From assembly GCA_002724735.1 (NCBI GenBank), contig PBPT01000016.1, positions 71,674 through 135,673 of the forward strand: 64,000 nt of DNA, given 5' to 3'. This DNA is from Fidelibacterota bacterium. Its GTDB lineage: Bacteria > Fidelibacterota > Marinisomatia > Marinisomatales > TCS55. This document shows positions 1,386 to 38,806 of this stretch, in pieces. Every line of letters begins with the position of its first letter. Within the stretch, counting starts at the first letter, position 1. The position numbers were made by a program, and so were the translations under genes. The notes beneath the pieces are model-generated. The model saw only the letters and a program-made list of their open reading frames with translations, ran no database searches and had not been told where the DNA came from.

Positions 1386-2248
1386 TGAAAAAATATATTC
1401 CAGGCGAGACTAAAGCACAAAGAAAAGCAAGAAAAAATGCAAAAAAAGCGTCTAAGGAAAATGCACCGGTAGCTCAGCTGGATAGAGCATCTGGCTACGA
1501 ACCAGAAGGTCGGGGGTTCGAATCCTCCCCGGTGCGCCAAGATCAAAAAAACTTTGTATTATGTCTTAAATGGGGTACCAAATACAGCCCTGATTATGTT
1601 AATAAGTTGTATCGTATGGTGCAACGTAATCTAACACTTGATCACGAGTTTATTTGTATCACAGAAAATCCAACTAATTTAGATCCAGGAATTAAAATTA
1701 TGGATTTAGAACTGAAAGCTGGAATAGAAGGTTGGTGGTACAAGCCAATGATATTTAATCCACATCTAGGACTACAAGGAACAATACTTTTTTTAGATCT
1801 AGATATGATTATATTTGGAAATATGGATAAGCTCTTTTCTTACAAGCAAGGTGAATTTTGTATTATAAGAGATTTTAACAGACATATTATACCTAACTAT
1901 GACAAATTTAATTCTAGTATAATGAGATTTGAAACAGGCCAGCATTCGCAAGTTTATCACAAGTACATGGAAGATATGCAAGGAATTTCAAGAAGGTTTC
2001 AAGGAGATCAAGATTGGACAAGACACGCGATACAAAACGATTATAATTATTGGCCAGACGAATGGATACAAAGTTATAAATGGGAAATGCGTGGAAAGCC
2101 TAGGATGACTTCAGGTCCTCGAGGTACAAGAGATTTTGAATCTCAAGGTGAACCTGATATTTTACCTGAGACTTTTATAGCTGTATTTCACGGAGATCCT
2201 AATCCACATTACTGTAAAGATGAGTGGGTTCAAAAGAACTGGTGTTAA
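1385..2248 (+). CDS. glycosyltransferase-like protein whose reading frame runs through a tRNA gene
   Basis: NFVLCLKWGTKYSPDYVNKLYRMVQRNL...TILFLDLDMIIFGNMDKLF is typical of phage GT-A-like proteins (DLD). Residues about 27-51 are the translated tRNA (PVAQLDRASGYEPEGRGFESSPVR). Confidence 0.65.
   Translation: MKKYIPGETKAQRKARKNAKKASKENAPVAQLDRASGYEPEGRGFESSPVRQDQKNFVLCLKWGTKYSPDYVNKLYRMVQRNLTLDHEFICITENPTNLDPGIKIMDLELKAGIEGWWYKPMIFNPHLGLQGTILFLDLDMIIFGNMDKLFSYKQGEFCIIRDFNRHIIPNYDKFNSSIMRFETGQHSQVYHKYMEDMQGISRRFQGDQDWTRHAIQNDYNYWPDEWIQSYKWEMRGKPRMTSGPRGTRDFESQGEPDILPETFIAVFHGDPNPHYCKDEWVQKNWC
1463..1539 (+). tRNA. tRNA-Arg(ACG)
   Basis: GCACCGG...CCGGTGC acceptor, TCTGG-CTACGAA-CCAGA anticodon arm, GGGGG-TTCGAAT-CCTCC T arm, encoded CCA. 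Confidence 0.95.
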
Positions 2249-2251
2249 TGA

Positions 2252-2280
2252 TTGACAAATAGTATAATATCGTATATACT
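2252..2280 (+). promoter_or_regulatory. sigma70-like promoter
   Basis: TTGACA-N17-TATACT upstream of the 2316 CDS. Confidence 0.75.
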
Positions 2281-2285
2281 AGTAT

Positions 2286-2293
2286 TATAAATA
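2286..2293 (+). promoter_or_regulatory. T4-type late promoter motif TATAAATA
   Basis: TATAAATA about 22 nt upstream of the 2316 start, immediately after the sigma70-like promoter. Confidence 0.6.
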
Positions 2294-2315
2294 AAAAAAT
2301 AAAGAAAGGTACTAT

Positions 2316-2627
2316 ATGGGACGAGTTTTTGTCGAGGAGGCTATAAATGCTACAGGTATTGATAGAACTAATTTAGTTGTTGTAGCAACATACCTAGTAA
2401 GAACTAAGCAAGCTACAAGTGCTATAGATGCGATACGTAGACTAGAAAACGGAGAGTTTGACAAAGCAGAATTAGAAGAAGAAATGATTAGATTTTTTCA
2501 ACATGAAAAACCTAAACCTGTTGAAGAAGAACCAATTATAGATGTTGACTCTTTTAATAATAAACAACAAAAACACGAAGCAGAAATAGAAGAAATTTTT
2601 TCAAAAGAGGTTGACACAGATAAATAG
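2316..2627 (+). CDS. hypothetical protein
   Basis: Complete ORF with an AAAGAAAGG-type RBS and strong upstream promoters. Confidence 0.75.
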   Translation: MGRVFVEEAINATGIDRTNLVVVATYLVRTKQATSAIDAIRRLENGEFDKAELEEEMIRFFQHEKPKPVEEEPIIDVDSFNNKQQKHEAEIEEIFSKEVDTDK

Positions 2628-2639
2628 CTGTGTTATAGT
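2611..2639 (+). promoter_or_regulatory. sigma70-like promoter of the tRNA operon
   Basis: TTGACA-N17-TATAGT, overlapping the end of the preceding CDS. Confidence 0.8.
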
Positions 2640-2663
2640 ATATACATACTAAGGAATAGAGCA

Positions 2664-2729
2664 ATGATGAACACAATACAAATAATATCTTATATATGGT
2701 GCCCAACTTACGGGAGGGGTTTGTCTTGA
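2664..2729 (+). CDS. candidate leader peptide of the tRNA operon (MMNTIQIISYIWCPTYGRGLS)
   Basis: 21-codon ORF with an AAGGA RBS at 2651-2655, between a promoter and an attenuator-like terminator. Codons match all five downstream tRNAs. Confidence 0.65.
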   Translation: MMNTIQIISYIWCPTYGRGLS

Positions 2730-2764
2730 TGTGATTTATTGACATTAAGTTTGAAACAAGCCCC
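2716..2764 (+). promoter_or_regulatory. candidate antiterminator hairpin
   Basis: GGGGTTTGT (2716-2724) pairs with ACAAGCCCC (2756-2764); inner stem CTTGATG (2725-2731) pairs with CATTAAG (2743-2749). The 3' arm overlaps the terminator 5' arm. Confidence 0.6.
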
Positions 2765-2788
2765 AAGCGAAAGCAAGGGGCTTTTTTT
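2758..2788 (+). terminator. Rho-independent terminator (attenuator) just before the tRNA genes
   Basis: AAGCCCC-AAGCGAAAGCAA-GGGGCTT followed by a T run, ending one base before the first tRNA. Confidence 0.85.
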
Positions 2789-2862
2789 ATGGGTGTAGTG
2801 TAACGGTAGCACGACAGTCTCCAAAACTGTTAGTCGGGGTTCAAATCCCTGCACCTATGCCA
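2789..2862 (+). tRNA. tRNA-Trp(CCA)
   Basis: ATGGGTG/CACCTAT acceptor, anticodon loop CTCCAAA, CGGGG-TTCAAAT-CCCTG T arm, encoded CCA. Confidence 0.92.
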
Positions 2863-2867
2863 ACAAC

Positions 2868-2952
2868 GGGCGGCATGTTCACAAGGTGTGACATCGGACT
2901 GTAAATTCGACGCTGAAAAGCATGCCTGGTTCGATTCCAGGGTCGCCCACCA
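2868..2952 (+). tRNA. tRNA-Tyr(GTA)
   Basis: GGGCGGC/GTCGCCC acceptor, loop CTGTAAA, long variable arm, CCTGG-TTCGATT-CCAGG, encoded CCA. Confidence 0.92.
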
Positions 2953-2957
2953 AGAAC

Positions 2958-3034
2958 CGGAGTATAGCACAGCTTGGTAGTGCGCCTGGTTTGGGACCAG
3001 GAGGTCGTAGGTTCGAATCCTACTACTCCGACCA
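2958..3034 (+). tRNA. tRNA-Pro(TGG)
   Basis: CGGAGTA/TACTCCG acceptor, CCTGG-TTTGGGA-CCAGG anticodon arm, encoded CCA. Confidence 0.95.
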
Positions 3035-3038
3035 TTTT

Positions 3039-3113
3039 GTGAGCGTGGGGGAATTGGTTACCCATCGGATTGCAACTCCGCTTATGCAGGTTCGAGTCCT
3101 GTCGCTCACTCCA
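3039..3113 (+). tRNA. tRNA-Cys(GCA)
   Basis: GTGAGCG/CGCTCAC acceptor, loop TTGCAAC, GCAGG-TTCGAGT-CCTGT, encoded CCA. Confidence 0.93.
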
Positions 3114-3120
3114 ACATTAA

Positions 3121-3214
3121 GGTCCTGTAGTTTAATGGTAAAACACCCGGCTTATACTCGGCATAGTCTCCAGATTAGAGAGCGATGCAGGTTCGAATCC
3201 TGCCAGGACTACCA
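3121..3214 (+). tRNA. class-II (long variable arm) tRNA with anticodon TAT, probably decoding AUA (Ile)
   Basis: GGTCCTG/CAGGACT acceptor, loop CTTATAC, variable hairpin TCTC-CAGATTA-GAGA, GCAGG-TTCGAAT-CCTGC, encoded CCA. Confidence 0.8.
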
Positions 3215-36918: not shown

Positions 36919-36926
36919 TATAAATA
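36919..36926 (+). promoter_or_regulatory. late promoter motif TATAAATA
   Basis: 33 nt upstream of GTG 36959. Confidence 0.55.
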
Positions 36927-36958: not shown

Positions 36959-38257
36959 GTGAAAACGAACAAATCCTTATTGGCGATAGACCTACTTGTG
37001 CTTATGGGCTTGATGTATTTTACATCTGGAGTGCATGCACAAACTTACACAGATGATGTAGCAAAGATAATCAATAATAATTGCTTAATATGTCATAGAC
37101 CAGGCGGTATAGGCCCTATGAGTTTTGAGGGCTACGAACAAGTTCGTCCTTGGGCACCATTAATTAAAATGAAAGTAGCTAGTAGAGAAATGCCTCCGTA
37201 TGCTTACGACCACGGAATAGGCATACAAGACCTACAAGGTGATTGGCGACTGTCACAAAAAGAAATAGATACAATAGTAGCTTGGGTAGACTCAGGCTCC
37301 CAATACGGAGATACCGACATAGTCGTACAACCTCCTAATCTTGCTGATCCAGACCAATGGAATTTTGCTGGAGACTTTGGTCCACCGAATCTAATAATTC
37401 CTAGCGTTCCTATAGATATTCCAGCAAGTGGTAACGATCTGTGGCACAAGCATCTAGTACCAACAGGACTCACAGAAGACAGATGTATTAAAGCAGTGCA
37501 AGTAAAACCTAGAGGCGATGCAAAGTCTGTAGTTCATCATGCTAATTCTAATGTAGTTATTGATGGAGGTCGTGAAGGTATGCTTACGGAATACGCTATG
37601 GGAAAGTGGGGAGAGATTGTCCCGGAAGGAGTTTGCAGAACACTTCCTGCAAATTCACAAGTTCGTTGGGACATACATATGTTTCCTGGCGGTTTAGGAA
37701 CAATGGCTCCAGGTACAGTTATCAAAGACAACGTGGTGGAAATTGGACTTTGGTTATACAGCGAAGAGGAAAGCCAAGAACTGAAATACAAACAAGATTT
37801 AAGTTTATATCGGCTAGGCAATCAAGACGATATCGTTATTCCTCCACATGGCTATCATATGACACAAGGTTTCCACAGTTTTGATCATCCTGTGCGTTTA
37901 GATAGCTTTCAACCACATGGACATTTGAGAATGAATGCGGCTAGTTTAGAAATATTTTATCCAGAAACTGGTCGTACAGAACCTGTGAGTCAAATATCTA
38001 ATTGGAGTGCAACATGGCATCACAGTCATTTATTTGAACCACATGTAGCCCCATTAATACCTGCAGGTGCAGTTATTATATTGAAGCAGTGGTATGACAA
38101 TACCGCAAATAACCCAAACAATCCTGATCCTGACATGTGGGTAATGGGTGGTAGTAGGACAGGAGATGAAATGACTCATGCCTGGCTTGCAATTACACAC
38201 TTAGATGAGGAAGGATACAATGAGCTAAAAGCTCAAAGGATGTTAGCAGAAAAATGA
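36959..38257 (+). CDS. secreted c-type cytochrome / copper type II (ascorbate-dependent monooxygenase-like) protein
   Basis: Signal peptide (LLAIDLLVLMGLMYFTSGVHA-Q); heme motif NNNCLICHRPGGIGPMSF...REMPPY; HHAN, QPHGHLRMNAASLEIFYPETGRT, QWYDNTANNPNNPDP, TGDEMTHAWL match the cytochrome/Cu-monooxygenase family layout. Confidence 0.8.
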   Translation: MKTNKSLLAIDLLVLMGLMYFTSGVHAQTYTDDVAKIINNNCLICHRPGGIGPMSFEGYEQVRPWAPLIKMKVASREMPPYAYDHGIGIQDLQGDWRLSQKEIDTIVAWVDSGSQYGDTDIVVQPPNLADPDQWNFAGDFGPPNLIIPSVPIDIPASGNDLWHKHLVPTGLTEDRCIKAVQVKPRGDAKSVVHHANSNVVIDGGREGMLTEYAMGKWGEIVPEGVCRTLPANSQVRWDIHMFPGGLGTMAPGTVIKDNVVEIGLWLYSEEESQELKYKQDLSLYRLGNQDDIVIPPHGYHMTQGFHSFDHPVRLDSFQPHGHLRMNAASLEIFYPETGRTEPVSQISNWSATWHHSHLFEPHVAPLIPAGAVIILKQWYDNTANNPNNPDPDMWVMGGSRTGDEMTHAWLAITHLDEEGYNELKAQRMLAEK

Positions 38258-38427
38258 AAAGACTAATACTTACATGTATTTTATTAACTGGCTGTAGTAA
38301 TTTGCCAGAAAGGTCGGCACAAGACTGGTCTATGCAAACTATGAGAAATCAAGATATCTTCATGCAGAGTTTAAGGCCTAATGTTAGCATGAATTATAGA
38401 GAAATACAACAAAGGATGATTAGATGA
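38254..38427 (+). CDS. small lipoprotein (57 aa)
   Basis: MKRLILTCILLTGCSNLPERSAQDWSMQTMRNQDIFMQS...; lipobox LLTGC; ATGA overlap. Confidence 0.75.
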   Translation: MKRLILTCILLTGCSNLPERSAQDWSMQTMRNQDIFMQSLRPNVSMNYREIQQRMIR

Positions 38428-38645
38428 AAAAACTTTTATTAGTTTGTTTTTTACTAGCCGGTTGCCATACACCTGGCCCAACAGATTTTTTGGAATACTA
38501 CGATGATCCACAACCTATGAACTTTATAGATCCTCTTAGATTCCAGAGAAACCTAAGAGATTGTAGGTCTGCACCACATTGTGCTGCCGAAGATCTCTTT
38601 AAAATTGCACAGGAGAAAAACTATGTGGACAAAACCAACGTATGA
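38424..38645 (+). CDS. lipoprotein (73 aa)
   Basis: [26 protein letters not shown]; lipobox LLAGC; ATGA overlap. Confidence 0.8.
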
Positions 38646-38694
38646 AAATATAAGACTTGGCTTCGAAATCACAATGTATGCTAAGAGCAACTAA
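38623..38694 (+). CDS. pqqA: PqqA-like coenzyme PQQ precursor peptide (23 aa)
   Basis: [23 protein letters not shown] matches the PqqA pattern (MWxKP...RLGxExTxY) with the Glu-x3-Tyr pair; AGGAG RBS at 38611-38615. Confidence 0.85.
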
Positions 38695-38697
38695 GTG

Positions 38698-38778
38698 ATG
38701 GGTGAATTAAGTCCTATAATTATAGGTATAGCATACATCGTATTTGCTATGATAGTGATACACCTATTTCCGGATTAA
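38698..38778 (+). CDS. 26-aa membrane peptide
   Basis: MGELSPIIIGIAYIVFAMIVIHLFPD between pqqA and the terminator. Confidence 0.55.
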   Translation: MGELSPIIIGIAYIVFAMIVIHLFPD

Positions 38779-38806
38779 TAGTGGGGGATTTCTCCCCCAC
38801 TATTTT
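38777..38806 (+). terminator. bidirectional Rho-independent terminator between convergent genes
   Basis: AATAGTGGGGGA-TTTC-TCCCCCACTATT, perfect 12-bp stem. Confidence 0.9.

Follow-up and report, generated by a model that had tools for sequence, protein, structure and literature searches.

Phage-encoded PqqA, as such, is already known. Coutinho et al. (2020; PMC7678222) reported a single phage population from Lake Baikal, VP_266, that encodes PqqA together with methanol dehydrogenase, and assigned it to Methylophilaceae. More recently, a 2026 survey of reservoir sediment listed virus-encoded pqqA, pqqD and pqqE among auxiliary genes (PMC13188868); the accessible portion of that survey treats pqq genes as viral auxiliary genes, as we do here, but reads them in terms of phosphate solubilization and does not describe a solitary precursor matched to the host. 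Stand-alone pqqA genes are also found in cells. The methylotroph strain FJNU-6 has five pqqA copies, three of them outside operons, and a solitary one ranks in the top two for expression; in methylotroph cell extract, added PqqA peptide gave rise to PQQ at 70-80% (PMC9851590). Within the open-licence literature, the papers on OM43 phages do not mention PqqA in phages.

Here, we analyzed a 64,000-nucleotide stretch of DNA (the window) from a T4-like contig, in which an unannotated 23-codon ORF encodes a PqqA peptide. Like VP_266, this phage is T4-like, has a predicted aquatic PQQ-using host, and encodes a PqqA for which upkeep of PQQ enzymes is proposed. Whereas VP_266 carries methanol dehydrogenase and was assigned a Methylophilaceae host, the phage described here has no PQQ dehydrogenase, its pqqA is paired with a cytochrome c-copper monooxygenase gene, and a Pseudohongiella-type host is indicated. 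The solitary pqqA of FJNU-6 offers a second parallel, as a stand-alone copy that adds precursor for one shared PqqB-E set, but that copy is chromosomal and cellular while ours is phage-borne. Relative to the open-licence literature, what appears to be new is the breadth of viral pqqA, its near-universal and unannotated presence in methylotroph phages, the fit of the peptide to the host subtype, and the pairing with a copper/haem cassette. In our view the ORF is a genuine phage pqqA, and very probably it acts as an auxiliary metabolic gene whose sole contribution is the substrate peptide of PQQ synthesis.

The pqqA ORF lies at 38623-38694 on the plus strand (23 codons plus stop, ATG start). A preliminary description, made from the DNA letters, had matched it to the PqqA family by residue pattern, and profile searches bear this out: the ORF scores 40.0 bits against Pfam PF08042 (cut-off 21.1; E = 3.7e-10) and 44.4 bits against NCBIfam TIGR02107 (cut-off 20; E = 9.7e-12), roughly twice the curated cut-off in both cases. 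Judged by these two curated models, it is a genuine PqqA family member. At 23 aa it falls within the size expected of PqqA (~20-30 aa with an E-x3-Y pair), and the residues to be cross-linked, E15 and Y19, are both present, as first described; relatives keep the pair too, in searches whose patterns required both residues. The C-terminal tail reads AKSN where relatives have FSTR or FKTR. Also as first described, an AGGAG ribosome-binding site (38611-38615, plus strand) precedes the ATG, with a 7-nt spacer, and the 5' part of pqqA overlaps the 3' end of a small lipoprotein-like ORF (38424-38645), in this case by 23 nt. Thus, at the level of sequence, a Shine-Dalgarno (SD) motif, start, stop and codon-level constraint are all present as signs of translation. 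No homologue of PqqB, PqqC, PqqD or PqqE was found in the window, in agreement with the earlier account, and the 335 kb contig that surrounds it had none either, so that the usual pqqB-E company is missing; the sole hit was a partial radical-SAM match at 23% identity. Because pqqA is solitary, only PqqB-E of the host could use the peptide, which supports the original proposal that it would feed host enzymes.

To what extent is this small ORF maintained in viruses? We ran two scans of IMG/VR with degenerate DNA patterns and added loci fetched otherwise; the combined set has some contigs entered twice. W, K, P, G, E and Y were fixed by the patterns, which also limited certain further positions and left the stop codon and the ribosome-binding site free. 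At least 230 viral loci carry the PqqA peptide, and PqqB, PqqC, PqqD and PqqE were found in none of the loci searched. Among the matches listed, a stop codon falls 22 codons after the Trp in 230/230 loci, an ATG stands 1-3 codons 5' of the Trp in 227/230, and 217/230 have an SD-like motif. The position of the stop is constant although no pattern specified one, which excludes a chance ORF. Across 52 distinct window-type nucleotide sequences the raw pN/pS is 0.19, a figure that the pattern constraints inflate; those codons that are under less constraint give about 0.29 to 0.69.

The peptide is also present in cultured phages. When 50,697 phage records were searched by tblastn with three different PqqA queries (one of them a Pseudomonas-like type), each query returned the identical 12 records, ten of which are true phage records. 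Nine are Methylophilales phage isolates (Venkman, P19250A, MEP301, MEP401, MEP402 and four Melnitz strains), and the tenth is the spring-water podovirus ctXG6705. Every Methylophilales phage isolate record found thus carries the peptide (9/9), while the taxonomy names further Methylophilales phages. In these phage records the peptides are PqqA sequences of 23-24 aa with an SD motif and an ATG. The earlier account held that such an ORF falls below gene-calling cut-offs, and indeed the peptide has no annotation in Venkman, P19250A, MEP301, MEP401 or MEP402; in Melnitz, a hypothetical ORF is annotated on the opposite strand. MEP402 is unrelated to P19250A, MEP301, Venkman and Melnitz, and near pqqA it shares DNA with them only across the ~60-95 bp ORF. 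This limited sharing indicates that the mini-gene moved between unrelated phages or was separately acquired by them. The two remaining records, both labelled 'Acinetobacter phage MD-2021a', were rejected as phages, being mislabelled bacterial DNA that holds a full pqq operon; CAKLQF020000010.1 (L008) is one such contig.

The window is part of a contig of 335,231 bp (G000:C57) deposited within a bacterial MAG. Its size, together with the T4-like phage genes in the window (DNA polymerase, clamp loader, tail-fibre, PhoH and ThyX), identifies it as a jumbo phage. In family searches, the MAG and its relatives had no PQQ dehydrogenase or pqqE over the cut-off, and no cytochrome-monooxygenase gene apart from the one on the phage contig. 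We therefore rejected the MAG as the phage host: it lacks PQQ genes itself and has no second monooxygenase copy, and the phage contig was probably mis-binned into this unrelated bacterium. The binning within a bacterial MAG, and the two mislabelled Acinetobacter records, could be taken to mean that viral pqqA is a functionless passenger from the host, or that it sits on bacterial contigs mislabelled as viral. Yet carriage by bona fide phage genomes is evident from the phage genes of the window and from the complete genomes of isolates that encode this peptide too, and the ORF has survived in unrelated phages as an island of ~70 bp, with a low pN/pS. We regard this explanation as extremely unlikely, and a genuine phage pqqA as the better account.

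Upstream of pqqA, the window encodes a 432-aa cytochrome c-copper monooxygenase (PHM-like) fusion (36959-38257, plus strand; GTG start), predicted to be exported. Foldseek with the structural model (pLDDT 65.5) returned PHM or dopamine beta-hydroxylase for all of matches 1-31, and the CxxCH motif and the candidate copper ligands H193, H194, H240, H320, H322 and M405 are invariant in 24 homologues. The model, which is of modest confidence, shows a PHM fold in which HH, H, HxH and M would make up two copper sites, and a corresponding activity is predicted. At least 243 viral contigs encode the gene. Relatives have the first monooxygenase, then the second, then pqqA; in the window, the place of the second monooxygenase gene is occupied by two small lipoprotein-like ORFs on the plus strand, at 38254-38427 (lipobox LTGC) and 38424-38645 (lipobox LAGC). 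The fusion, usually followed by a second paralogue, is widespread and a candidate auxiliary gene. Neither the monooxygenase nor the PqqA peptide has a PHROGs family, PDB sequence searches with either gave nothing useful, and the monooxygenase is absent from the phage record collection. Among bacterial monooxygenase genes, a PQQ dehydrogenase adjoins in 9/75 loci only, at ~30% identity, and therefore no firm functional link between the two can be drawn.

The arrangement suggests that the monooxygenase is the first gene of a transcript shared with pqqA. A candidate T4-like late promoter, TATAAATA, lies at 36919-36926 on the plus strand, 40 nt 5' of the monooxygenase GTG. Since the window as a whole shows no enrichment of the motif, we used only its conserved position: TATAAAT occurs near the monooxygenase start in 21/67 viral relatives, mostly at -37 to -40, compared with 62/419 other plus-strand ORFs. 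Directly 3' of pqqA is a tentative 27-aa hydrophobic ORF (38695-38778, plus strand; GTG start), and a hairpin-like candidate intrinsic terminator at 38783-38797 (plus strand) would close the transcript. Where viral monooxygenase loci extend far enough downstream, pqqA is present in 13/53.

We next consider which bacterium this phage infects. The preliminary description had suggested a PQQ-using host, for example a methylotroph. For the wider group of phages a methylotroph host holds, as the nine Methylophilales isolates show, but for the phage of the window it is doubtful. The bacterial homologues of its monooxygenase, up to 77% identical, come from marine Gammaproteobacteria, some entered as Pseudohongiella and others as Pseudomonadales or unclassified, and its PqqA subtype fits the same group. 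From the neighbour gene and the peptide subtype, the host is likely a PQQ-making member of Pseudohongiella-type marine Gammaproteobacteria. Unlike the MAG, this candidate family is rich in PQQ dehydrogenases. Matches to the PQQ alcohol dehydrogenase model number 23-56 per genome, with at least one over the cut-off, in 28/28 candidate host-family genomes (G031-G058); a full pqqE is present in seven of the 28, and pqqA in those very seven. In the family of one of the seven (G045), pqqA was found in 34/137 genomes. The closest bacterial homologues of the monooxygenase are in genomes with no detected pqqA or pqqE.

The peptides themselves follow the host. In the candidate host family, pqqA heads a pqqABDEC operon (L308-L314, L318-L324), whereas phage pqqA stands alone or follows the cytochrome-monooxygenase pair, but the two are alike in length, SD motif, ATG and the subtype Y-E-x-[IV]-R-L-G-F-E-[IV]-T-M-Y. 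Among the matches listed, 62/102 window-type viral peptides are within two residues of a host-family PqqA, as against 2/128 of the other viral peptides. The best phage-host pair differs at one site in a 22-residue comparison, and the window peptide differs from the nearest host variant at 3/22 residues. As a separate observation, all genomes tested in this family have PQQ-dehydrogenase matches, yet pqqA is found in only about a quarter of the family; members lacking pqqA may import PQQ.

How could a phage benefit from a single 23-aa peptide? One PqqA is consumed for each PQQ made, while the PqqB-E enzymes turn over, and a phage that halts host transcription would therefore need to resupply the peptide only. 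As read from their sequences, phages with pqqA probably feed host PQQ synthesis during infection; we infer expression, cross-linking, conversion to PQQ and a benefit to the phage. In the mechanism that we propose, pqqA would be expressed late in infection, on the transcript shared with the secreted cytochrome c-copper monooxygenase. Host PqqD would bind the phage peptide, PqqE would join E15 to Y19, and a host protease, PqqB and PqqC would complete PQQ. For a phage shutting down host genes, PqqA, the smallest part of the pathway, would be the only one in need of replacement, and its resupply would sustain PQQ, and through it the periplasmic PQQ dehydrogenases and respiration. Related phages would perform the same service for OM43/LD28 methylotrophs. 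Many bacteria also import PQQ, and that infected cells require more of it is therefore an assumption.

Two other uses of the peptide could be considered. First, it could act as a decoy that occupies PqqD/PqqE and lowers host PQQ, so that periplasmic oxidation is starved or SAM and iron are saved. A chaperone could be titrated by a solitary substrate analogue, and a phage-carried PQQ dehydrogenase, which we also looked for, was found in 0/35 viral contigs tested. However, a decoy would gain by losing or altering E or Y, whereas the peptides retrieved, with patterns that required E and Y and would miss mutated decoys, are complete substrates, and they track host subtypes to within 1-2 residues; we therefore judge a decoy very unlikely. 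Second, PqqE could cross-link the peptide into a product other than PQQ, such as a signal, an inhibitor or a structural piece. The late-type operon context of its own and the tail after Y19, which varies between phages, would suit such a role, but the constant length, the subtype and the PQQ-dependent hosts of these phages fit plain PQQ supply, and nothing points to another product, so that this second use seems highly unlikely. Supply of the PQQ precursor is thus our preferred reading of the peptide.

If this reading is true, viruses sustain a host cofactor pathway through a sacrificial peptide alone, an economical form of metabolic takeover, and viral infection is tied to marine methanol and alcohol oxidation. 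For uncultured phages, the sequence of PqqA would also give a hint of a PQQ-making host. Since cultured OM43 phages carry pqqA without annotation, the idea is open to test now in existing phage-host pairs, namely Venkman and Melnitz on H5P1, and MEP401/402 on FZCC0133. More tentatively, and with somewhat less than even confidence, phages of PQQ-dependent aquatic bacteria may have a general strategy of feeding a host-matched consumable cofactor precursor peptide, which unrelated phages acquired separately and which went unnoticed since its gene has only 23 codons; in jumbo phages that infect Pseudohongiella-type hosts, it might form a cassette with cytochrome c-copper monooxygenases that rewires periplasmic oxidation in the infected cell.

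Several other features of the contig were observed. A 328-aa radical SAM protein (L023:17889-18872) has a score that rules out PqqE. Outside the window (L019:13938-17163), adjacent genes for a periplasmic binding protein and two ABC permeases resemble those of the phosphate transporter PstSCA. Within the window, six phage tRNA genes (Arg, Trp, Tyr, Pro, Cys and Ile) are located at 1463-3214.
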